Shown here: piece after piece, positions 48,757-61,469 of the stretch | Numbering within the stretch: the stretch's first letter is position 1 | Layout of the letters: each line of letters starts with the position of its first letter | From: Coriolopsis trogii | Lineage: Eukaryota > Basidiomycota > Agaricomycetes > Polyporales > Polyporaceae | Direction: 5' to 3' | Length of the DNA: 64,000 bases | Assembly (NCBI GenBank): GCA_020543525.1 | Contig: JAHYIO010000036.1 | Span: 1,240,001-1,304,000, forward strand | The notes under the pieces: model-generated | Database searches by the model: none | Seen by the model: the letters and a program-made list of their open reading frames with translations, nothing else | What the model was told of the DNA's origin: nothing | Translations under genes and position numbers: made by a program

Positions 48757-50330
48757 TCACAAGCCGCCGTGGAGACGCATGTCCTCGATGAGCTTCAGAA
48801 CCTCGTCAATCCCCGCTTTCCGACAATGCTCAATCAATGCTTCTAAGCCCTCGCGCCCTGCCTTCTCGTAAAATGCCTTGATGAGATCCTTCTCTTTCTC
48901 ACCTATCTTCACCTGGCTCCTGTACCACTCGTCCGCCCGTTCCTGCCCGTAACGACTTCGAACAAATTCGAGCTCGCCTTTCTCTACCACTTCGCAATAG
49001 TACTCTCCGATCGCGTCCATGTTAAACTTCGCAGGCAGACCTACGGGGAAGGGGTTGGATCCTGTAAAGTGCGCGGTATACTGGTCGTCCAACTTGATGT
49101 AGTCATAGCCAGTCCCCGGTACAAAGCAGGGGATAACGAGCGAGTCCAGGATACACATTGCCTGCCAGTACTTGCATATCGCTCGCCCGTCTCCGACGCG
49201 GAACTGCATTCGCATGATCACATACTCGCTGGGCTTGAGTTCGACAATACCTCTCTCTGCGCTCTTGATTGCCTCTGGCAGTGACGATGAAGTCGAAATC
49301 TATGCCAGTGGCGTCAGACGTTATAGGTAAAATATTGAACAGACTGCGAGTGCGAGTGCTTACCTCTTTCCCGTTAAAATGGGTGATACGCAAGCGAGGG
49401 ATGTTGTCCCATATGTCATTGGCTACCCGAACGCCTACACACGCACCACTAAAACAAGTATCAGAGGTTGCTGAGAAGCTACGGCTCAGTCCGGAACTCA
49501 CACGGGCTCGATGAAGGTGAAAAGATTGTCAACTTCGGCCTTGCCTTGCATCACGAGGCGGGCTGTGGTAGTGAAGCTGACGACATGGCTCTGCGCTCCA
49601 AATATGAGCACGCCCTTCCCGTCTTTGCGCCTATTTTGTACAAGAACTTCGAGAGTCAGGAGGTTGTGAGTGAAAGCATGATGCCTTCCGGCTATTTCAG
49701 CATCTTGAGTGGCGCGAGCATAACGGTCACTGCCGCCGTCACGCGCAGCATCCTCCGTATAAAGAGGGCTGATGAGTGTTTGAAGTCTGTGATGATACCT
49801 CATGTGAGCGGTACCGGTCTGATGTCCGATGACACTGTTTGTACGGACGTACCTCGTCTCGACCTCATCAGGGATCGATACCCAACAACCCACGCCGTCC
49901 TCTGCATCATATCCCGATGCGAAGATCGGGTGTGGCGGGTACTGTTTGTCCGGACCAGTCGGCACTGTAAGAAACGCAGACGTGTATGGAGGATGCACGA
50001 ACTGCGTGCATTCGTTCCTGTGGTGGTCCTTCCAGTCCTTCTGCTGACACTCCTTGCTACAGTATCGCACCGCTCTGGGGTATAAGTAACAATACCATCA
50101 AACTCGAGGTCTCCGTCCTGAAGATAGAGTGTGACGTACCGGCAGCGCACGCAGAACCTCAACTTGTCTGCGTTTGTCTCGCCACAGCAGCTGCATTGGT
50201 GGAAAACGACCCGCTTGTGTGCTTTCGCCTCCTTGTGCCGGGGCAAACGTTGTTGAACCTGACGGTACCAAGCTTCATCGGTTGCTTGATTGAGGTTGAC
50301 CAAGGCACCGAGCAAGTTCTCGAGAGACAT
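48757..50330 (-). CDS. MYND-type zinc-finger protein (copy 3)
   Basis: Four exons (50330-50140, 50074-49502, 49448-49364, 49299-48757) sum to 1392 bases, 463 residues. The MYND finger, CSCCGETNADKLRFCVRCR plus RYCSKECQQKDWKDHHRNEC, is split by an intron at the same place and phase as in the 39.8-kb paralog. The shared domain follows: DGVGCWVSIPDEVE, LVQNRRKDGKGVLIFGAQSH, WDNIPRLRITHFNGKE, PSEYVIMRMQFRVGDG, then a C-terminal helical region ending LKLIEDMRLHGGL. The second and third introns also match the paralog in position relative to the protein. An inverted, dispersed duplicate of copy 1, probably old given the divergence. Confidence 0.85.
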
Positions 50331-51488
50331 TATATGGGAGATGAAACAGAGATCGGTAGGCTCATGAACGCCACCGCCGTAGGGAGATTCACTTCAACAT
50401 TGTTGTATCCGCTTACATCAGCGCTTCTAGCGCGTTTCGGCTCGATGTCAGTGAGTCCCGCTCTCTGAAATGCATACCATACATACGCTGTATCATTGCG
50501 TCCATGAGTTTCTGTCTCTTCATGATGTGCGATGATATTTGCCACACAGGCAGGCAGGAATGGAGAGTCGGGAAACGTCCAAAAGTGGTGGCTCGCTAGC
50601 CAAATACTATGAGGCGGTTTTTCGGACAAAAACAACACTTCGCGGGTGCTTCATGTCTTGTTAGCTCTCTTTATTCGTCTTCATCATCATCTCTGTCATT
50701 GTTGGATCTCATATGTTCAAATCAGACGAGAATATGCCATGATAAGCCTCCTCGAACCTCCGATTTCCTATGCAAGTCCTCTTTCGCACATCTTAAGCCA
50801 TGTTCTCCCGTGACATGTTACAGACGCCTGTGACCCAACACTAACAACGCGAGTGTGACACAATACCAACTTTACTCCCAGTCGATCATGTCCACACAAA
50901 TTCATGCACTCTTGTCCGATATAATCAACATCTACCTGGCATTCTCCGGCAGTCTGCAAGCCAGCAATCCATGTTGTGTGTAGCATCGTGCCATGGTAAG
51001 CTCAACTGTACCATTCTCACGAATCGTGAGTCAACTTAAGCCATCACACTTCACATCGGTCTCCTCTTGATACATTCTGATGGAGTGAACCAGACCATAT
51101 ATGATCAAACTCTGCTTATGATGACTGTAGCAACGAGTGAGTGGTGAGGTGTCACTGTGTCACACCAAGTACAAGAGGCTTGGTCATGAAAAATGAGGGT
51201 TGGAAGCTTACGCTGCTCAATTGTGCACGAAGGTGGGAAAACAAGAGTTTTCAACAACATTTATGGACTAGTGTGTACATGCGTGTGTAATCATGGCTTA
51301 TGAGAGCTTACGCAGTGCAAAGGAGAGCGCAACATGTCTGCGCGAATATTGTCCTAGAAATGCCGTCATAAAATACGTCAACACAGCTGACTAAGCATTC
51401 TAAACCTGTTTGCTGTTCACAAGAATCACAACTGTTCACAACCAGTCCAACACTCTCCTTTACGCTCACTTATTCGCCCCCTCCATTC
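50331..51488. other. Intergenic, AT-richer, left flank of the transposon
   Basis: No exon chain, no recognisable gene. Composition is lower in G/C than neighbouring genes. Confidence 0.5.
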
Positions 51489-51530
51489 TACATCAGGAAA
51501 TCTCCCCCCTGCGAATGAGCGCTAAATTAG
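51489..51530 (+). repeat. Left terminal inverted repeat
   Basis: TACATCAGG, then a C-run and TGCGAATGAGCGCTAA. It pairs in inverted orientation with 59262-59301. Confidence 0.65.
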
Positions 51531-51535
51531 CGCTC
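51517..51535. repeat. Perfect 19-base palindrome
   Basis: GAGCGCTAA-A-TTAGCGCTC, with nine-base arms around one central A, sits in the left terminal region. It may be a transposase-binding or cruciform site. Confidence 0.8.
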
Positions 51536-51545
51536 CACTGCGAAT

Positions 51546-51606
51546 ATTCTCGATACGGCCGCTTTCCTGGAGCTATTCCAAAGCTCCGATCTGGTCATTC
51601 GAGAAT
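51546..51606. repeat. Nested hairpin next to the transposon left end
   Basis: Outer stem ATTCTCGA (51546-51553) with TCGAGAAT (51599-51606); inner stem GGAGCT (51569-51574) with AGCTCC (51582-51587) around a seven-base loop. Confidence 0.65.
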
Positions 51607-51665
51607 GTGGGTATATGCAGGGAAAATAGTATGCTCAAGGCGAGAAAATGTCAGCTAATTGAGTG

Positions 51666-54600
51666 CTAAAACATCGTCATGTACATATGCCTATCGCTGA
51701 AAGGGTTGAGGAAGAATGTCCGACATTGCTCGAGTACCGAGCTACTCGACCACTCCCTGGGCGCAACTGGTCCGAAATCAGGGATCAGATGACAACTACG
51801 ACGTATGTCCTGAACCTCTACTACACTCACAAGACGCTCCCCCTCGCGATCTGTCAGGCTACGTGAGAGTCTATACATACGATGGGAGGCATGGGGCTGC
51901 ATGAACTCCGTAAACCACTCGATGTACGCAAGATGGCCTGGAGGAGCGACACCAGCCTGGGGCGGGAAGAGCCGCTGATTGGCTTTGTCCGGCAGCACGA
52001 AGACCATGCGTACTTGCCCAACCCGATAGCCTGTGTCCTCATTGTAGTCAGCATCAAAGAAACCATCGTCGCAGCATAGTGTCTCACCTTGGATCCCAGT
52101 CTCGCCGCCCGTCCCATCATTTACCAGCACCGTGTCGAATCGTGCTGCAACGGATCGTCCTTGGGTGTCGTACCTGGCAGGTTGGATATGGATCACATCA
52201 TGGAAGTCTTCGCTGACGCCGAAGCCTTCGATGTCGTGTATCGTGACGATGCCAAACGGGGACTTTCGTGAAGTTCATGAAGAAGCCGGCAAGAGCGCGC
52301 TCTACCTGTGCCGTTGAGAGGTCTGGCCGGCGACGGCGTATGATGAATCGCGCAAGGGCGTCCCGGAGGTGCATGGCACCATATTGGGTGCCCGGGGTGT
52401 CAAAGGAGATCGCCTTGACGCTTGGGTACTTGCTGAGCTTCAGCATGGTGCCAGATGTTGACTGGAGGACGATGCCAGTCGTGTCAAGGGCCGTGGAGGA
52501 TCGCGCAGCGCCACGAGAGTGTTGGTCCGTATCAGAAGGGGCGGTGGGTGGTGCGCGCATGAGTCTTCACTTGATATAGGCCTCGTGGTGTTGGATCTTC
52601 TCACGTCGCTCAAGCCATGCGGTCATCTGCGGAAACTTGTCTTTGTGGTTCGTCGCACGGTAGGCATCCTTGGCAAAGTCAATGTGAAGTCGCTCAGTGA
52701 ACTGCATATCGTAGTTGTCGGTGGTGCCAAAAAGTTTGATTGAGGGCGGGTAGTGATCAAGAGAGTGTAGTTTTGGGATTTTGAAGTGTGCGCGTATACC
52801 GAGATCGACGAAAATGGATTTGTTGTCGTGAAAGCGTTGGAGTGCATCTCGGAGAAGGCGGAGAGTCTGGGAGGTATGTGCCGGGTACTGCGCCAGGTGG
52901 AGAAAGTCAAGGACAGTGCGAAGTGCGCGTACAAGGCGGAAAGGAGAGAGGCCATTCGGGAGCGGAAGTCCGACCACAAGTCTGAGGAGAATATGGCATA
53001 TATCACCATGTTCTTTGCCGGTGACACACTGAAGCTTGGTGATTCCGTGAGAGAAAAGCCGGATGTGGTGGTTGGGAGGGAGGCAACGGCAGCGTGCATT
53101 GATCTCCTCGGTGCCAAATGCGTCCTTGAGCCATGAGATGAAGTGCTTGATGACTCCTTGATACAGCTGGTGGAGGATGTCCGGCGTGATAGAGCGGTAG
53201 ATGTTGACGTACGGAAGGTCCTCCCAATACGGATGGATGATTGGTTTGATCCCGGCCAGATGACAAGCACTGGTTGTCATGATTAATGCACATGCGGGGC
53301 AATTCACAGTGGTGACTCACTGAGCAAACTCCTGCGGATCTTCGTCAATTTTTCCAAGTGCGACGAGCACTTTTTCGAGGTCACGCAGTGCCGTCGGTGT
53401 GGTGGAGGGATCACCAATATCATCAGGAGCTATAGGACATTTTGGACACTCACCCTTCTTCGCACCAGTGACGAGCAGTTGCTCGGGATAGTCACCAATA
53501 TGAACAGCGAAGATCGGGTGTCCTCGACGGACTATGCCGTCGCCGCTGGCGAGCTCAATGCCGTGGATCCCTGCCTCTTTGAGTGGCTTCAGAACATGGG
53601 CTAGACATGCGTGAAACAGGTTCGAAAATGTGCGACGGCAAGCGGCGTCGCTCGTAATGTGATCAAGGTTGGAAGAAGGGAGATATGCCAGAAGAATCTG
53701 TCCGCCACGGGACGGCTTGCAGCGGACGTGCTTCGGGAGGTTCCCAATCGTCATGTAAACGGGATATGCGGTCTTGTTCCCGAAGAGGGTCAACTGGGTC
53801 TTGTCGGTGGAGATGATGATGGGTATGATGGTGGCACTGGGGTGCTCGCGCTCGAGCTCCTCCTACACGGATAGAGATCAATGACTACCAGTACACAAGA
53901 ACGGACTGTGCTTACCTGCGTAGACCACCACCATTCACCCATGTGCATGTCAAAGTACACGCGGATATTCTCGTCGCCCTCTGTGAAGTGCCGTTCCGGG
54001 CGTAGGATCAGGATGCCTGAAAAGTCGGGGTCGCCGTATAGCGCACGGACACAGGCTATGATGTCGCGGTAGAAGAGTTCGAAGACTTCATCGGCTACAA
54101 CAATACGCTGCCTGATGAAGCGCGGTCGACCCGACGATAGCTTGGAGTCGACCATCTGATTGAGCTCTTCTGAATTCTTGAATGAGAGTCCTAGTAGGTC
54201 TGCGAGCTGTCAGGGATTAAATCAGCCATATGTGCAATATGAGCGAACCCATGCAAGCAAGGAAAGTGGCCAGTCGGGATGTCCCGCCAAGACGAGAGAG
54301 GAGATAATGATTTCAAGCGAGGTGTGATCCTCAGCGAAGTTGGGAACTCACATTCTCAATCTTGAGGAGCTCTGAAAGAGCTGTGGAACCCGGTCCACGC
54401 AACTTCGCCCAGCGTGCAACCTCCCAGTCCATTTTCGAGGCGAAAGGGGCGAAGATGTTGTCGGATGTTGCCTGCAAGTCCTGATATTGGGAAGCGACGG
54501 GATTGCGCTCGAGTGGAGCCCCAGCAAGTCCGAATGGGAAGGGGACAATGCGAGTCTTGGTACAGAGACGCTGCTCAGCATCTTGACGTTCACCTGAGTC

Positions 54601-55068
54601 GACGTTGAAGCGTCCTTCTTCAAGTTCTTCGTCCCTAAAGCCACCGCCGTGTGGAGGGGCTTGTGGTACGGGCTCCCACACATCTTCCTCGCCAAGCTCC
54701 TCATCGCTGCCTATATCCGGTGATGGAGGAGGTTCGAAGTCTCTAGACTTGCTCTCATCTGACAGGACGTAGTCGTCGTAGTTGTCGAAATCAGCGTCGG
54801 TGTAGGTGCCGAAAAAGTCGCCCTCGAAGTCCAGAGCTACGGACAGGAGATCGTCTTGGCCTTGTAGGTGGTCGTGTCTGGCGTCCTCATTGTTGTTGAG
54901 GTCCGGCGCAAGCGCAGGCTGTTGATCGTGCTTTGAATTGTCATGTGCGTCGAGAGCCTCTTGAGTCTCTCTGAGAGCGAGGCATTCCGGCCTAGTAGTG
55001 AAAAGGAGGTGCCGGGTATAGCCTGAGTGAGAAAAGGTGCCGCCGCATGCTGGACATTGGACAGGCAT
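51666..55068 (-). pseudogene. Plavaka-type transposase, damaged
   Basis: The start MPVQCPACGGTFSHSGYTRH carries a C2H2-like finger, then an acidic linker. The Plavaka core follows: WARWAKLRGPGSTALSELL-like region, LADLLGLSFKNSEELNQMVD, RHFTEGDENIRVYFDMHMGE with WWW, IIPIIISTDKTQLTLFGNKT and AYPVYMTIGNLPKHVRCKPS, GECPKCPIAPDDIGD, then HPYWEDLPYVNIYRSITPDI with LHQLYQGVIKHFISWLKDAF. Exons: 55068-54352, 54206-53916, 53862-53321, 53269 onward, with a further in-frame intron near 52085-52026. An in-frame TGA at 52569-52567 (after EAYIK) interrupts the last exon, and near 52243 the frame must shift by one base to continue from NFTKVPVWHR to IHDIEGFGVSEDFHDVIHIQ. The protein then runs intact to 51666. 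Probably a recently disabled copy. Confidence 0.78.
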
Positions 55069-55491
55069 AGTGGAGTGGACAGGCAAAAAGATGGCATTGG
55101 ATTGCGAACAAGATAGAGCAGCCGTTATCAGCACAGACAGACCGGAAATTCGGACGTCACGGGACGGCAGGGCGGGTGGCGATCCGTCTGCCAAGAATGG
55201 CAAGGGCGGGCGGACTTGGAGGCCGGCTACCATGGTTGCGCGTGGAGCGTCAGAGCCCGCAAGCATCATAAGAAAGAAATTTCTTGACTCACCTCATCTT
55301 GGACTTGAACCACCATCTCCCTTGTACTGTACCCCATCTAATCCTATTCTATTCTCTTCACTATTGTCTCATCCCACCTTCCTCTTAATCAACTGGAACC
55401 TCCAAACATCTGTACGTCGAGACAGCAGCCCACTTACCTCAGGCCAACAACCGCATCTGTCTGTACTCACCAAATATCATGCACAGCCAAC
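55069..55491. promoter_or_regulatory. Divergent intergenic region inside the transposon
   Basis: Separates the transposase start (minus) from the DUF6532 gene (plus) and presumably drives both. C/T-rich from 55310 to 55400; no defined element seen. Confidence 0.4.
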
Positions 55492-58402
55492 ATGCCGAAG
55501 AAAGGCTCACAAATATGCGGCCAAGCGGCAGCCCCTGTTCGTGAGGCTGCGCCTTTTGACAGTTCTCATCGGCGTAAGTATCACTGTACAGTAGTTTACT
55601 ACACTCACTAACACCTATTTCATGCTCCAGCTACGCGTCACGCAGCCGAGAAGGCGCATGAAGGTAGCGTAGTTATTTGCTGGTCTTTCCTGATATGCCA
55701 CCCACTGACGCTGCGCACACGTAGTATGGAGCGCCCTGGTGCCAACCCCACGAAAGCGAGATCGGAGAGCGGCGGCAGTATCTGATTCCGAGACTGCACG
55801 GCAAGGACCTATAGCCAAGAAGTTCAGTAAGTTCCTGATCTCACCCACATAACCATTGACACCCTTGAGAACACTGTTGTCGCCAATCAGAGAACTTCGG
55901 CGGTGAGAGTGAATCTCAACCCCCAGCCGACATTCCCATGCCAGACTCCCAGACGACTCCCTCTGCTGCAAAGCAGGGCGAGTTTCAGGGATGTCAAGCA
56001 CGTCGGCGTCATCGTGCTCCTGAGATCAACGTCGACTCCTCCGAGGATAAAAGCCCACGATGATCCTCTCTTCGCATGCAAAGGACCTCTGAGAAACGCT
56101 CGCACCTTCAGGCTTCCTCTCGGCCCAAAGCGGCTCAGTCTCCCACCTCCTCTGTCCCTCCGACCCAATCAAAATTGCAGAACAAGTCCAGTAAGCATAA
56201 GAGCGACAGTGACGAATACCATAGCCATTCCAGTGAAGACGAGGAAGTTGAAGAAGACGACGTCGAGTTGGAGACCGGAGATTCACGGGCGCTCGCGCAA
56301 ATGTTCACAGAGGAGGTACGTACATTCCCACACCTTCTTGCTCATTGTTCACTAGCCTCTCCAACCCCTCTTCTCCCGTACACCAAGCAGACACCTATCC
56401 TCTTGGATGAAGAACAGCCTCGACAACTCCCTCCGTCCACACTCCGTTCACACAAGGAATCCGTCGCGACGCAACCAGCTCCTCCAAGCGGGGCAGGGTT
56501 GGAGTCTGCAGCTGTCACACAAGGCCGAGTCCACGTTTGCTCAACATCAGGCTCTACAGCGAAGCAATCACAGAGTGCGAGGTCTTCGAAGGACAATGAG
56601 CGACTCGGAGCCCAACATCGACCATGGTCTGCGGGACGAGCTCGTGGATCATCTCAGCGATGTGATCCAGAGCTTGACGGACAAGACCTTCCAAGGCCAC
56701 GTGGAGCTAGAGCAGGCGAACGCCTTCAACGCGACGCAGCTTCAGACGATGATCAGGAGGGTTGGAAACAGCAGGTGAGTACCTAATCATCCATCCGTTG
56801 CGTGCATGTGAAGTGACTGCGATGCTTGCGCGTAGCTGGCATGTGCCGACAGCAGTGTAACACGACGGTTGGGCTCTCGTGAGAACTCTGCCATAGCCAT
56901 GAAGGGTGGACACATACAACAGCCTCGGCCCCCTGTCAAGTCTACCGAATGCGCGAAGACCAACGTTGCCTCCGCCCGCGAGGTCAGCACAGCGCGCAGA
57001 CCCCACAAGACTGCCGTCAACGAAGTATGTCTTCCTAACATCCTCCCGGGCTCCAGGACAGCACTCTGACCCCTCACACACTCACAGGTCCCTGTTTTCG
57101 AGCACTCGCGTGACCCGAATGGAAGCGACGAAGAGTCCGATACCGAAGAGCTCGCTCAACAGATTGTCAATGCACATGTTCGCCGGAAGCACAAGGTGTG
57201 TTCTAAGTTCTTCGATTTGACGTGAATGCTTAAACATTAGCCCACACATTCCCAGGCCCGCATGAAGGCTGTTGCCAGGAGCAGCGATGGTGACGACAAG
57301 GACACGGACAATGAACTCATGGACGTCAACGAGGAGAACATCAACCTTGTCTGGCCTCCGAAGGGAGGAAAGCTTCGCTTGAAACAGCAGATGCCTCGCG
57401 TGCAGGCGGTCGCCCGCAACGCCATTGGCCGCCTGTTGGCCTGTGCTTGCCTCGTTAACAGTTTCCCTGAGGGTCCCGAGAAGCACAACCACTATGCCAA
57501 GCAATCTCTTATCTACAGCGCTCAGGACCTTGGCTACAACGACGTTGTCGACCGTTTGAAGAAGGACAGGGATTACGCCCATGCCCTGGGCACAATTGTG
57601 AGTTCTCAAAATATCTTGATGATCAGTGGTTTGACAAGTCTTCTGTAGCCAGCGCAGCGTCTCAGTGGGTTCCGCGGCCGCCTCAAGCAGTTGACGGATG
57701 GACTGGCCGCCGCCGCATACGGTCTTGAGAGCGGCAACAAGGACCACGTTGAGTGGCTCCGTCAACATCTTCGCTATATCTATCCGTGTGACTACGAGGT
57801 GCGAATATTGCCTAGTACCCTGTGCTCAACACTCTGATACTTCACGCATTTTACAGAAGGACACGTACTCTGGGGGTAAGCCCTTCCAACGTCCGGTCTT
57901 CTTACAAACCCTCCGCGCCGGTCTTTTCAACAATGCGAAGAGTATCGGCAACCTTCTTTACGAGCAGTTCACGTCCTCTGACCCCGACCACCCGGATGAG
58001 AAAGAACTGCCCGCACCCATGCTAGCGCTTGTGTCAACCGCCGTGAGTACATGACTTTGTCCGACATTACGTTCACTCATTCCGATGCCCACAGTTGTAT
58101 GCCTCTATCGCTGACTACGAGTTTGATGTCTACGATGCCGATGAATTCTCGGCTGATTCATTTGCTGACGTCTACAACGAGAATATGCGACTCCTTACGC
58201 ACATCAAGACCAATGGACCGAAGAAGTATCACACCCTGATGCATCAGCTGCTCATGAACCTCCGGTGCGACACTCTTCTAACTCTATGGCATTCAGTTTG
58301 ACTGATAGTACGGCTAGCGGAACACGCGCACGTGCCAAGAAGTCTGCCACCGTCTCGGATCCAATCACACTCCTCAAGCTCGACGAGATGGACGAGGACT
58401 AG
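55492..58402 (+). CDS. DUF6532 domain protein inside the transposon
   Basis: The N-terminal half is charged and disordered (NFGGESESQPPADIPMPDSQ, SKHKSDSDEYHSHSSEDEEV) with basic clusters suited to a nuclear protein. From about 57280 the DUF6532 domain is clear: ENINLVWPPKGGKLRLKQQM, HYAKQSLIYSAQDLGYNDVV, FRGRLKQLTDGLAAAAYGLE, PFQRPVFLQTLRAGLFNNAK, YEFDVYDADEFSADSFADVY, ending LKLDEMDED at 58402. Splicing restores the frame if the intron after QMFTEE ends at the first AG (TTCACTAG, about 56355) and a later one at 56860. A TGA at 56061 lies in the frame of exon 55877 and must be removed by an intron with a weak GTCGAC donor, or the gene is damaged there. DUF6532 is common in agaricomycetes and has no known function. 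Confidence 0.68.
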
Positions 58403-58532
58403 ACTCCCTGGATACGTACTTGTATATATCTGTCCGTCACCGCATTGTCGCCTCCCCACTCCGTTCATCCTCTCTTGTGAAAAATTCTCACACTCTGTTT
58501 CAACTCCCTTCGCCTCACCTCGCCACCGTCCC

Positions 58533-59058
58533 ATGCGGCCATACCGTCTCATTGTCGATGAGGCTTTATCAGATGATAACTCTGGTGAGTCTTGTATACT
58601 CCTGTCTCAAAAGTCGGAATCTGATCACGGACGCACATAGGGGTCATCCTCAACCCCGCATCAATCCAGCTTTTCCGTGGTGCCGCCATGACTGTTTGGT
58701 ATGTATGACGGACAAAGGGTGACTTACATCTTGTTGACTGTTGCTGCAACACAGGAAAGATGCAGCACGACACCGTCCTGATCTGCCTGAGCTGCGACAA
58801 GGTCGAGGAGGGCAAGATTCCGATGAATGGACTGGAACAACATCCGGTTCAGCTGGGTCACATGGTCAGTGGGCACCCAGGCTCGGACGATGCGGACGCT
58901 GGCAAGCGCGTACATATATTCTCTTTGACAACTCCGTCATTCTCACTCGTACCATACACGATGTTGCGACTGGTGTCTCTTTCCCTCATATGCCACTCTT
59001 TGCCCCAACCTCTCCCCATCCATATGTCCATAATATGTCTTATGTTGCATCGTACCAT
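58533..59058 (+). pseudogene. Truncated fragment of CDC48/p97 N-terminal domain
   Basis: MRPYRLIVDEALSDDNS, then VILNPASIQLFRGAAMTV, DTVLICLSCDKVEEGKIPMN and GKRVHI follow the order of the CDC48/p97 N-domain (RPNRLIVD..DDNS, LFRGD, DTV.I.L, N, YGKR). Introns at 58585-58640 and 58699-58754 have consensus ends, so this is a genomic, not retro-copied, fragment. Splicing the second intron puts DTVLICL out of frame by one base, three residues are missing before LFRG, and another one-base loss separates GKRVHI from FDNSV. Both ATPase domains are absent. Read as a non-functional captured piece of the host CDC48 gene; a short expressed decoy cannot be excluded. Confidence 0.7.
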
Positions 59059-59195
59059 ACCATTGCCTTTAATACATTGAGCTTGCCTTTATGTGCGTCC
59101 TAGCGTGAACGTAGAGCTCTGATACGAACGTCTATCCTAAGTAAATGCGGCGATAATACGAGTTAATGATTGACTAACACTGGGTTTATATGGTA

Positions 59196-59280
59196 AATTA
59201 GCAAAGGGGTAAGCTCAATAGCGTTAACTCGGAAAACGCGACTATTAGCGCCTATTAACGTCTATTAGCGAAAATTAGCA
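59196..59280. repeat. Subterminal motif cluster at the transposon right end
   Basis: ATTAGC, ATTAACG and close variants recur about six times in 85 bases (AAATTAGCAAA, CTATTAGCGCC, CTATTAACGTC, CTATTAGCGAA, AAATTAGCAGG). The left end has GCTAAATTAGC and CAGCTAATTG. Such arrays are usual transposase-binding regions. Confidence 0.6.
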
Positions 59281-59301
59281 GGGGGGACTTTCCCTGATGT
59301 A
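59262..59301 (-). repeat. Right terminal inverted repeat
   Basis: Read on the minus strand: TACATCAGGGAAAGTCCCCC, then CTGCTAATTTTCGCTAA, matching the left end in inverted orientation. Confidence 0.65.
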
Positions 59302-59734: not shown

Positions 59735-61058
59735 CTAGTTATCCTCCGCGGGAACCTCAAAGATCGAACACTCACACGTCTTCCACGTCGCCCCACAGAG
59801 GTAACAGAACTCCTTCCGGCACCTGCACCTCATGTGGTAGCAACCGTCCACGCGTTCGACCAGGTGCATGCACGACGAGCAGCGCTGCCACCCCTGCTCG
59901 CGCCCAAGCTGCAGCATCGCCTCCTCGTCCTCCGCTGCCGTGCACCTCCGGCCGGGATGCGCCTTCTCCTTGCAGCAGCCGCACGTCGCGCAGTCGCACC
60001 GCTCGCAGTGCATCGCGGTCGCCGTGTGGCTTGCGGAGCTTGAGCCCGAGCCCGAGCTCGATGCCGCCCCGAGAAATGCCGAGCAGGTGCGGTTGTGGCA
60101 GTAGACCCGGTCTGGGGTCTCGTACTCCTCGACCTTCTCCTCGTACCGAGTGACGAGGGAGGCATCGAGGTACTCGCGGGCGCGTGCGAGCTCGATCCGA
60201 TCCTGGCAGCATTTGGGCGGGTAGAGCGACTCGTCTTTCGTCGCGTTCTCGAACATCGTGCGGAGGCAGTGGGTGTCGAGCAGGTGGCCGCACGCGAGGT
60301 ACATGACGGGAGTCTCTATAACGTCTCCGCAGACGATGCAACCTGGCTTGTGTATGCGCGCGAAACGAGCATTGGGAGGCCCTTCGGGAGACTTCGGCCG
60401 TGGTCTGTTGACAAGTCTTTCAGCGCCAGGACTCGGAGTGTCGCCTCGAGAAGGAGACCTAGAGGAAGCATTGGACGTTCGTGAATGATCAGGTTCACCA
60501 AAGAAGTGCGGCGAACCTTGAAGAGTCCCTTGAGACCGTTCCTGCCGCTTTGTCTGAGGCAAGTGGTTCTGGCATTCCTCCGAGACCACCGTGGCTATGT
60601 CTCACTAGTTCTGAGCTGCCGTTCGTACATAGATGATATCAGAGATTGAATTATGGCCTTGTTCTTACCCCGAGGCAGGCGTACCTCAGAATCTTAGGGT
60701 TGTTTGTGTGGATACGAATGGGCCGCTCGGGCGGGGTTGGCGGATCCCTGCCTTCAGAGAGAGCGAGAGCCATCGCCCTGTCGAACCGCGCCATCTCCTC
60801 CACTTCCAGCAACTCCTCAAAAAGTCGTTCCTCATGGGATAGGTCCTGCTCGACGAGGAGGTGCGCCTTGGCCATGGACAGGAGCCCTCCTGCCTCCTGA
60901 GCGAATAGTGCGAGAGCCATCTCCTCGTCTGATCCGTCGAGCGGCGTCTCGTCTCCTTTTGAAAGGATGTGGTCGATCTCAGCTACAGATAGGTAAGATA
61001 TATGCGCTACGAGCACCGAGAGCATGTCCGCTGTGTCCAGAGGGTCGAATAACGGCAT
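59735..61058 (-). CDS. RBR-type E3 ubiquitin ligase
   Basis: Two exons, 61058-60669 and 60553-59735, joined by a 115-base intron (GTAAGA...TTGCCTCAG). The N-terminal helical part, MSVLVAHISYLSVAEIDHIL-like with DEEMALALFAQEAGGLLSMA, is typical of agaricomycete RBR proteins. RING1: CIVCGDVIETPVMYLACGH with HCLRTMF and PPKCC. In-between-RING: YCHNRTCSAFLG, then CERCDCATCGCCKEKAHPG. RING2: RCSSCMHLVERVDGCYHMRC with CRKEFCYLCGATWKTC; the Cys after HMR is the expected catalytic residue that carries ubiquitin as a thioester. Such ligases transfer ubiquitin in a RING/HECT hybrid way; the substrate is unknown. The splice was chosen because other acceptors put stops before RING1. Confidence 0.82.
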
Positions 61059-61469
61059 GCTGAGCTGACAGTATAGTCCTAGAGGGGGTCAAAGATGGAG
61101 GAGGATTGAGAGCCTGAGCGTACCTTCTATGACTCGGAGTGGTAGTTATACATCCCTCGAATGACTTCCTGCTGGGAGAGGGGAGGTCCGCAACCCGTCT
61201 GAGCACCGAAGTCACGATGTGAACGCCGCGCCAAGGCAGCGACACGGTAGGGAACTCAACTCGACCTCTGGCTGTGTTCTGCGCGGCGGACATCATTAGG
61301 GTATGCGTAACTTGACAAATTGGGCCACCATGAGGCTTGAGCCTCATGTCCGTACTCGGGTTTCCACCTTCCAACACTCATCGAGAAGACATGCAAACCT
61401 CATGGGCTGGATACTATAGAGACGGACGAATGACGTGACAGTCAAGTCTTTCCCGCGTCATGCGATCCC
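61059..61469. other. Promoter side of the RBR gene, no other gene
   Basis: About 400 bases upstream of the ligase start, up to the first duplicated segment. Confidence 0.45.

Follow-up and report, generated by a model that had tools for sequence, protein, structure and literature searches.

A PlavakaB-type transposon of Coriolopsis trogii with a divergent transposase and DUF6532 gene pair, the latter very probably a core gene, and a captured CDC48 fragment

The 64,000-nucleotide window analyzed here (Coriolopsis trogii, assembly GCA_020543525.1, contig JAHYIO010000036.1, positions 1,240,001 to 1,304,000 of the forward strand) contains a 7,809-bp element, at 51491 to 59299, that we read as a two-gene PlavakaB-type transposon with a core of divergently oriented transposase and DUF6532 genes, the DUF6532 protein serving as an accessory and a CDC48 piece as passive cargo. 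We give this reading as a whole a probability of roughly 75%. That this element is a single mobile DNA transposon is almost certain. The genomic-context counts (pairing, copies, and ends) all come from one C. trogii genome. The features of the element, in window positions, are the following:

51489 to 51490, no strand: 2-bp target duplication (TSD) TA, left copy; TA flanks both sides
51491 to 51525, plus strand: left terminal inverted repeat, transposase side, starting CATCAGGAAATCTCCCCCCTGC (inverted-pair search, pattern search, and end reading)
51511 to 51545, no strand: left subterminal repeats with the palindrome GCGCTAAATTAGCGC (sequence and motif counts)
51666 to 55068, minus strand: Plavaka transposase gene of several exons (PF18759 in three exons; start codon from our reading of the sequence)
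55492 to 58403, plus strand: DUF6532 gene, divergent to the transposase (PF20149, and a splice model of the last five exons; the start is a guess)
57256 to 57597, 57649 to 57798, 57857 to 58042, 58095 to 58264, and 58309 to 58403, plus strand: last five DUF6532 exons (splice model)
58545 to 58921, plus strand: CDC48 N-domain fragment with introns kept (tblastn with the native CDC48 translation, E value of 1.5e-14)
59199 to 59279, no strand: right subterminal repeats of GCTAAT units, partly a 10-bp-spaced array (repeat family D4, spacing 10, 10)
59265 to 59299, minus strand: right terminal inverted repeat, DUF6532 side (inverted-pair search, pattern search, and end reading)
59300 to 59301, no strand: 2-bp TSD TA, right copy (end reading)

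In the 13 kb searched, no inverted pair was longer than the one joining 51489 to 51525 with 59265 to 59301 (37 nt, 81% complementary), and a base-by-base reading showed agreement between the two ends at 19 of the first 22 element bases. The pattern TACATCAGGNAANNTCCCCCCTGC, with up to two mismatches, was found at 31 sites in 38.8 Mb, most of them forming pairs on contigs, compared to one site for the reversed control, so that the inverted-repeat boundaries proposed by the sequence-only reading are real. Of its limits, 51489 and 59301, the arms stand and the exact positions do not: since the bases preceding CATCAGG vary among copies and recur on the other side, we place the limits at 51491 and 59299 (termini CATCAGG..CCTGATG) and take the leading TA as target duplication. 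TACATCAGG was ruled out as the terminus, its first two bases being the TSD. Identical 2-bp flanks were seen in 29 of the 32 end pairs read and a 3-bp match in none of them; at least three further apparent pairs (C39:641943-643940, C6:1572872-1575112, and C3:3349529-3351434) lie outside this count. TSDs accompany 10 of the 11 large elements, the exception being the C7 element. This absence, together with the unequal flanks of L039, another locus with CATCAGG ends, indicates that end pairs can be rearranged, which is what could be said for two ends derived from different elements with the genes between them assembled by chance. Such an origin is nevertheless extremely improbable, as TA stands on both flanks in the window, the same two genes lie between such ends at 10 further places (TSDs in 9 of the 10), and whole-length copies exist. 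The earlier proposal of a single element is thus upheld by further copies that share this type of end and have 2-bp TSDs. No empty site for the window element was found in the C. trogii genome.

The C5 and C36 copies are 91 to 98% identical along the element, each being split by an insertion, and the C8 copy shows 94% identity at 51491 to 56782 and 75% at 57307 to 58477. The ends of C8 are near-identical, yet its DUF6532 protein is only 82% identical, which is a point against our reading. A second subfamily is represented by the C1:322950 copy; 7,351 of its 7,511 bp were queried, and the whole of this query matches the C4 and C30 copies at 92% identity, with TSDs in all three. Insertions account for the surplus length of the C1, C5, C36, and C7 copies; they contain paired direct repeats and reading frames of retrotransposon type, which we take from the protein letters to be Copia and Gypsy. 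Their inserts look like LTR retrotransposons, and we discarded the idea that these longer copies are elements with extra cargo. The insert in the C33:1316779-1330813 element measures about 6.5 kb.

Three exons cover positions 1 to 100, 104 to 273, and 275 to 325 of the 325 in the PF18759 transposase profile (E values of 3.5e-22, 2e-60, and 4.2e-17), and the reading frame stops at 51666, leaving 175 bp to the left element end, in line with the earlier report of a Plavaka transposase ending near this boundary. PlavakaB elements have been defined by 5'-CATCA..TGATG-3' termini, a TSD of 2 or 3 bp, and a place apart from PlavakaA in a transposase tree, the transposase having C(2)C and H(3-4)H motifs between its second D and last E (Kojima 2025, PMC12730594). 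The window element shares with them the PF18759 transposase, the CATCA..TGATG termini, and a 2-bp TSD (TA/TA). In domain, ends, and duplication, it matches the PlavakaB type (CACTA-like). The letters of exon 53317-53862 contain CPKC, a candidate for the C motif. The extra gene named there for some PlavakaB families is TET/JBP; here, it is DUF6532. The window copy itself is probably not autonomous because a short deletion near 52247, seen in comparison to three sister copies (C5, C36, and C8), shifts the transposase frame.

The DUF6532 gene and the CDC48 fragment lie where the sequence-only reading had located them (PF20149, tblastn, and splice model), and the last five DUF6532 exons encode an intact C-terminal region of 313 amino acids. 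The earlier proposal that DUF6532 is candidate cargo did not hold, and the gene is better regarded as a fixed constituent: both genes are present in 11/11 gene-bearing elements found with three related end types. Being carried beside the transposase in the copies of this genome, DUF6532 looks as if it belonged permanently to the transposon rather than being a host gene picked up, and it is very probably a core element gene. A Plavaka transposase was found within 12 kb at 15 of the 19 DUF6532 loci (such zones make up 2.1% of the genome; P of ~3e-22), always in divergent orientation (15/15). Of the four loci without a nearby transposase, C20:2931 sits close to the end of a contig, and C4:682454-684216 is what is left of an element, with a single end; the other two are fragments at C1:3865769 and C1:3876282, for which we have no explanation. 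Four DUF6532-bearing loci (C28, C34, C1:650k, and C25) lie outside the set of elements with called ends. Counts of homologues from the protein searches are lower bounds, with only the candidates sharing most words scored.

Copies whose ends flank the transposase only had been named beforehand as evidence against the single element; none appeared among the 11 elements of this lineage. A more distant Plavaka family has CATCAGG ends and no recognizable DUF6532, as in C30:2490858-2497993, a bounded Plavaka element with TA on both sides and no PF20149 match. Overall, such a match is absent from 18 of the 32 merged Plavaka loci. These loci, together with the two unexplained C1 pieces and the fact that capture does occur here (the CDC48 fragment), could speak for DUF6532 as host cargo, taken up a single time in the ancestor of the clade and hitchhiking since. 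We rejected this as very unlikely given the purifying selection within the element lineage (see below), the fixed divergent arrangement, and the fact that no ordinary host gene could be demonstrated among the 19 DUF6532 loci of the genome; an example of passive cargo is the CDC48 piece. In a transposase tree restricted to loci of this genome (6 of the 18 PF20149-lacking loci taken, C5:1000916 dropped for having fewer than 200 aligned columns), the 13 DUF6532-bearing and the 5 DUF6532-lacking sequences separate with a support of 1.000.

In the informative pairs, both genes show the signature of purifying selection, with a dN/dS for DUF6532 of 0.087 (window-C8) and 0.088 (C33b-C1b), the two pairs informative for it. 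Recent pairs gave noisy values (0.12 to 0.65 for DUF6532 and 0.4 to 1.9 for the transposase), and distant pairs are near saturation. Transposase and DUF6532 diverge in parallel, their identities being correlated (r = 0.96; 36 non-independent pairs from 9 elements, a set that excludes the C4 and C30 copies as well as C28, C34, C1:650k, and C25, which gave no DUF6532 columns). Between the window and the C33b/C1b subfamilies, DUF6532 is 36 to 38% identical and the transposase 69 to 72%. This faster evolution resembles an arms race and would fit an anti-silencing or host-interaction protein of the element, dispensable for the cutting and joining chemistry, as would a domain charge that is not basic overall and the TET/JBP genes of some PlavakaB families, proposed to counter methylation silencing (PMC12730594). 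We consider this unlikely, although less so than host cargo, since a Pfam scan of six homologues gave no enzyme domain, the structure comparison gave no clear solved relative for the predicted domain (all-helical in a Cubamyces homologue, pLDDT of 77.6), and a gene found in 11/11 elements of these end types looks more like a required part. Fast divergence is also known in TNPA-like proteins (PMC2613891). Among seven proteins, the net charge of the domain lies between -9 and +11 (-1 for the window protein) and is thus no pointer to DNA binding.

An accessory role of DUF6532 in transposition is the most likely mechanism, somewhat more probable than not. The transposase would cut at the CATCAGG ends and generate the staggered 2-bp duplication on insertion; the DUF6532 protein might recognize or bridge the subterminal GCTAAT repeats, as TNPA does in En/Spm; specific binding to these repeats is a tentative suggestion, drawn by analogy. 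On the right side, GCTAAT is found at positions 21, 31, 51, and 98 from the element end. GC[TG]AAT reaches 17.2 per kb near the ends versus 0.46 per kb inside (interiors including inserted DNA), and the subterminal motif was present at 31 of 32 ends (16 elements). Near the DUF6532-side end, however, GCTAAT is missing from C36a, although it occurs there in the window element and in C33b/C1b, which speaks against our reading. We regard as doubtful the further-reaching idea that DUF6532 is the obligatory second component across a whole clade of CACTA-like Plavaka transposons, a new and structurally unmatched end-recognition factor reading the subterminal repeats, and that the families of this genome without recognizable DUF6532 (C30:2493k and C30:2704k) keep a remote relative of it, likewise placed divergently.

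En/Spm (CACTA) likewise combines (PMC2613891) a transposase (TNPD) with a faster-changing second protein (TNPA), asymmetric subterminal repeats, and non-autonomous relatives that have mainly the ends in common, although its products come from alternatively spliced transcripts rather than from two divergent genes. The likeness of DUF6532 to TNPA would be one of analogy. Harbinger/Nuwa elements, which belong to another superfamily, also encode a second protein beside the transposase, in their case a separate Myb/SANT DNA-binding protein; the Pfam scan showed no Myb/SANT domain in the six DUF6532 homologues. No paper linking DUF6532 to the Plavaka mechanism was found, and within the text covered by the literature search, DUF6532 was mentioned only in a paper other than PMC12730594. 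A Ganoderma paper names PF20149, alongside Plavaka and KDZ, as an additional protein domain of two species. If our reading is true, PlavakaB elements gain a second component, a "hypothetical host protein" family of mushroom genomes becomes a transposon gene, and Agaricomycetes gene counts would have to be corrected.

The CDC48 piece is true captured cargo, a host gene fragment inside the terminal inverted repeats with its parent gene elsewhere in the genome (native CDC48 matched at G000:C30:2824264-2824605, minus strand). It would represent a later, passive DNA-level capture, at a place flanked by the DUF6532 gene on one side and the right element end on the other. The capture proposed by the sequence-only reading is thereby supported; the spread of CDC48 function is not, since the piece is a fragment found in only three elements (window, C5, and C36) and perhaps as a remnant in C8 (our reading of a DNA alignment, not reported by tblastn). 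Its frame seems broken at the 3' end, and a dN/dS of 0.196, from 35 hand-picked ungapped codons and including the constrained parent branch, neither shows nor excludes constraint. Pack-type and CACTA elements capture host gene fragments. The present case, a fungal one of capture by a CACTA-like element, is likewise a DNA-level event involving an intron-containing host exon block and a multicopy transposon; it differs in that the carrier is a two-gene element in which one fragment was found.

The window corresponds to C33:1240001-1304000 in genome G000. In the 13 kb around its PlavakaB-type element, no inverted pair is longer than the arms of that element. A genome search for its termini, which the sequence-only reading had proposed, gave 31 sites in 38.8 Mb versus 1 for the reversed control (102 versus 18 control sites with a looser pattern), and the 2 bases ahead of CATCAGG varied among copies. 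When 32 end pairs among the matches listed were read base by base, identical 2-bp flanks were found in 29 (chance expectation, 2; P about 5e-32) and a 3-bp flank match in 0. The element therefore extends from 51491 to 59299, with TA as its target site duplication (TSD). The matching termini had been placed at 51489 and 59301; the inverted arms are present, but the outer TA is the duplicated target. Termini and TSD agree with PlavakaB, defined by CATCA..TGATG termini and 2-3-bp TSDs in the relevant sections of Kojima 2025 (PMC12730594), which also describe TET/JBP genes in some PlavakaB families.

On the minus strand of the element, three exons cover nearly the full Plavaka profile. Compared with the sister copies on contigs C5, C36 and C8, the 3' part of this transposase gene is frameshifted by a short deletion near 52247, so the element in the window has probably lost autonomy. 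The divergent plus-strand gene contains PF20149 (DUF6532), and its last five exons join, under our splice model, into an intact 313-aa C-terminal region. Three protein searches (5, 13 and 4 hits) yielded at least 17 distinct homologues, from Trametes, Cubamyces, Earliella, Lentinus, Lenzites, Ganoderma, Epithele and Jaapia, labeled as hypothetical, uncharacterized or DUF6532 proteins. Judging by the best of these hits, the source fungus would be a polypore. The element is inserted between two genes that, judging by their cysteine patterns, we take to be MYND-finger-like (49498-50393, on the left) and RING/IBR-type-like (59735-61088, on the right).

Sister copies C5:918346-939161 and C36:902827-917455 are 91 to 98% identical to the window element across its length, each interrupted by inserted DNA, while two diverged copies, C1:631590-643622 and C7:1282968-1299191, have 71 to 75% identity in their longest matching pieces. 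In these four, the inserted DNA shows direct repeats in pairs as well as reading frames resembling those of retrotransposons, and subtracting it leaves about 7.4 to 7.9 kb. Near-identical LTR retrotransposons, presumably Copia-like from their protein letters, interrupt both sisters (C5:924985-937985, loci L011-L013; C36:905422-912246, L017), with two copies inverted relative to one another on C5. The sister C8:891971-899361 (L016) is a mosaic, 94% identical to the window element over 51491-56782, 75% over 57307-58477 and 83% over 58875-59299. The closeness of its transposase side and both ends, set against DUF6532 coding DNA at 75% identity, suggests recombination between subfamilies. A second subfamily has different end sequences (CATCAGGAAAATCCC) and four copies, and another element shows a third end type:

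C1:322950-330460, second subfamily, TSD AT
C4:101411-108867, second subfamily, TSD CT
C30:2371309-2378765, second subfamily, TSD AT
C33:1316779-1330813, second subfamily, TSD GA
C36:203476-211190, third end type

Of the 7,511 bp of the C1:322950 copy, 7,351 bp served as query; the C4 and C30 copies match this query throughout at 92% and with equal score, and the C33:1316779 copy matches at 78 to 90% in two pieces separated by an insertion. Both genes are present in 11 elements with these three end types, and 10 have a TSD, showing that the whole two-gene unit moved in the past, making 2-bp duplications; whole-unit copies elsewhere in the genome thus bear out the earlier view of a single element. 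The sole large element without a TSD, C7:1282968-1299191, has unequal 2-bp flanks (the flanking bases read TAACA and TTACA) and is perhaps a rearranged or chimeric copy. Three Plavaka loci occur inside 27 kb at C1:624318-651367. We also observed 21 non-autonomous elements of 1.6 to 2.9 kb (L019-L028, L048-L058) in several small families, sharing ends with the large ones; 19 have 2-bp TSDs, and no identification was made for their longest open frames (109 to 233 aa).

Genome-wide, 32 PF20149 matches merged into 19 loci. For 15 of these, a PF18759 match is no more than 12 kb away, although such zones amount to 2.1% of the genome. By the strands of the profile matches, all 15 pairs are divergent. 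The loci without a nearby transposase were:

C20:2931, close to the contig end
C4:682454-684216, element remnant with one end
C1:3865769 and C1:3876282, two pieces for which no explanation was found

Protein identities of transposase and DUF6532 were correlated (r=0.96; 36 non-independent pairs from 9 elements), with DUF6532 changing faster. Between the window and C8 copies, dN/dS was 0.087 for DUF6532 and 0.147 for the transposase, and between the C33:1316779 and C1:322950 copies it was 0.088 and 0.05, respectively. Very close copies gave noisy values (0.12 to 0.65 and 0.4 to 1.9), and in distant pairs, where synonymous sites are near saturation, DUF6532 reached about 0.30 (window element versus C36:203476 and C33:1316779). 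A tree of 18 transposases split the 13 with DUF6532 from the 5 without (support, 1.000). The DUF6532 gene had been proposed as cargo; its proximity to Plavaka in 15/19 loci, the uniformly divergent arrangement and the dN/dS of the first two pairs argue instead for a core gene of these elements (probability about 0.9). In the open-licence literature, DUF6532 was found in a Ganoderma study only, the relevant part of which merely gives it, together with Plavaka and KDZ, in a list of additional domains of two species. The Plavaka passages of PMC8290104, PMC9674265 and PMC6396904 name no second gene, and no published account of the pairing was found in the open-licence texts consulted.

Of the 32 merged Plavaka loci, 18 lack a PF20149 match, and these include short fragments. 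Among the 18 is C30:2490858-2497993 (L042), with TA at either flank and CATCAGG ends alike over 20 nt; a relative at 88%, L039, has the ends with unequal flanks. Both carry their own divergent second gene (a 209-aa stretch is 94% identical between them), with no Pfam match over the cut-off and a faint, nonsignificant likeness to DUF6532. This family counts against DUF6532 being universal in Plavaka.

The motif GC[TG]AAT occurs at 17.2 per kb at positions 23-160 from the ends versus 0.46 per kb in interiors. Of the 32 ends of 16 related elements, 31 have it, in part through common descent. At the DUF6532-side end of the window element, the first 103 bp alone contain four GCTAAT units, some of which are arrayed at 10-bp spacing; within the first 260 bp there are three units in C33:1316779, two in C1:322950 and none in C36:203476. 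The transposase probably cuts at the CATCAGG ends. In our leading idea, the DUF6532 protein would be an accessory factor reading the ends, by analogy with En/Spm, whose TNPA is likewise a faster-changing second protein accompanied by subterminal repeats, as outlined in part of PMC2613891. We consider an accessory role in transposition somewhat probable and specific binding to the subterminal repeats a tentative proposal. Against end reading, the domain model, built from a Cubamyces homologue (pLDDT 77.6, pTM 0.75), gave no clear solved structural relative, the domain is not consistently basic, and the C8 ends are near-identical to those of the window element despite the diverged DUF6532.

Part of CDC48 has been picked up, as first supposed: 58545-58921 matches its N-domain, and the native gene was matched at C30:2824264-2824605 (minus strand). 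The introns retained in the fragment point to capture at the DNA level, and its 3' end seems to contain a frame break; we read it as passive cargo. C5 and C36 share the region 58440-59110 with the window element at 98% identity. Most of this region is missing from C8, which may keep the tail. By tblastn (E <= 1), the fragment was not seen in the fetched C1 and C7 loci or in the covered parts of C33:1316779, C1:322950 and C36:203476. Contig C2 holds further CDC48 N-domain-like exon pieces, in L046 (C2:223000-232999) and L047 (C2:353000-362000), neither with an Rfam match; two pieces lie 7.7 kb apart within a 98% identical direct repeat, and several short ones lie at 331-358 kb.
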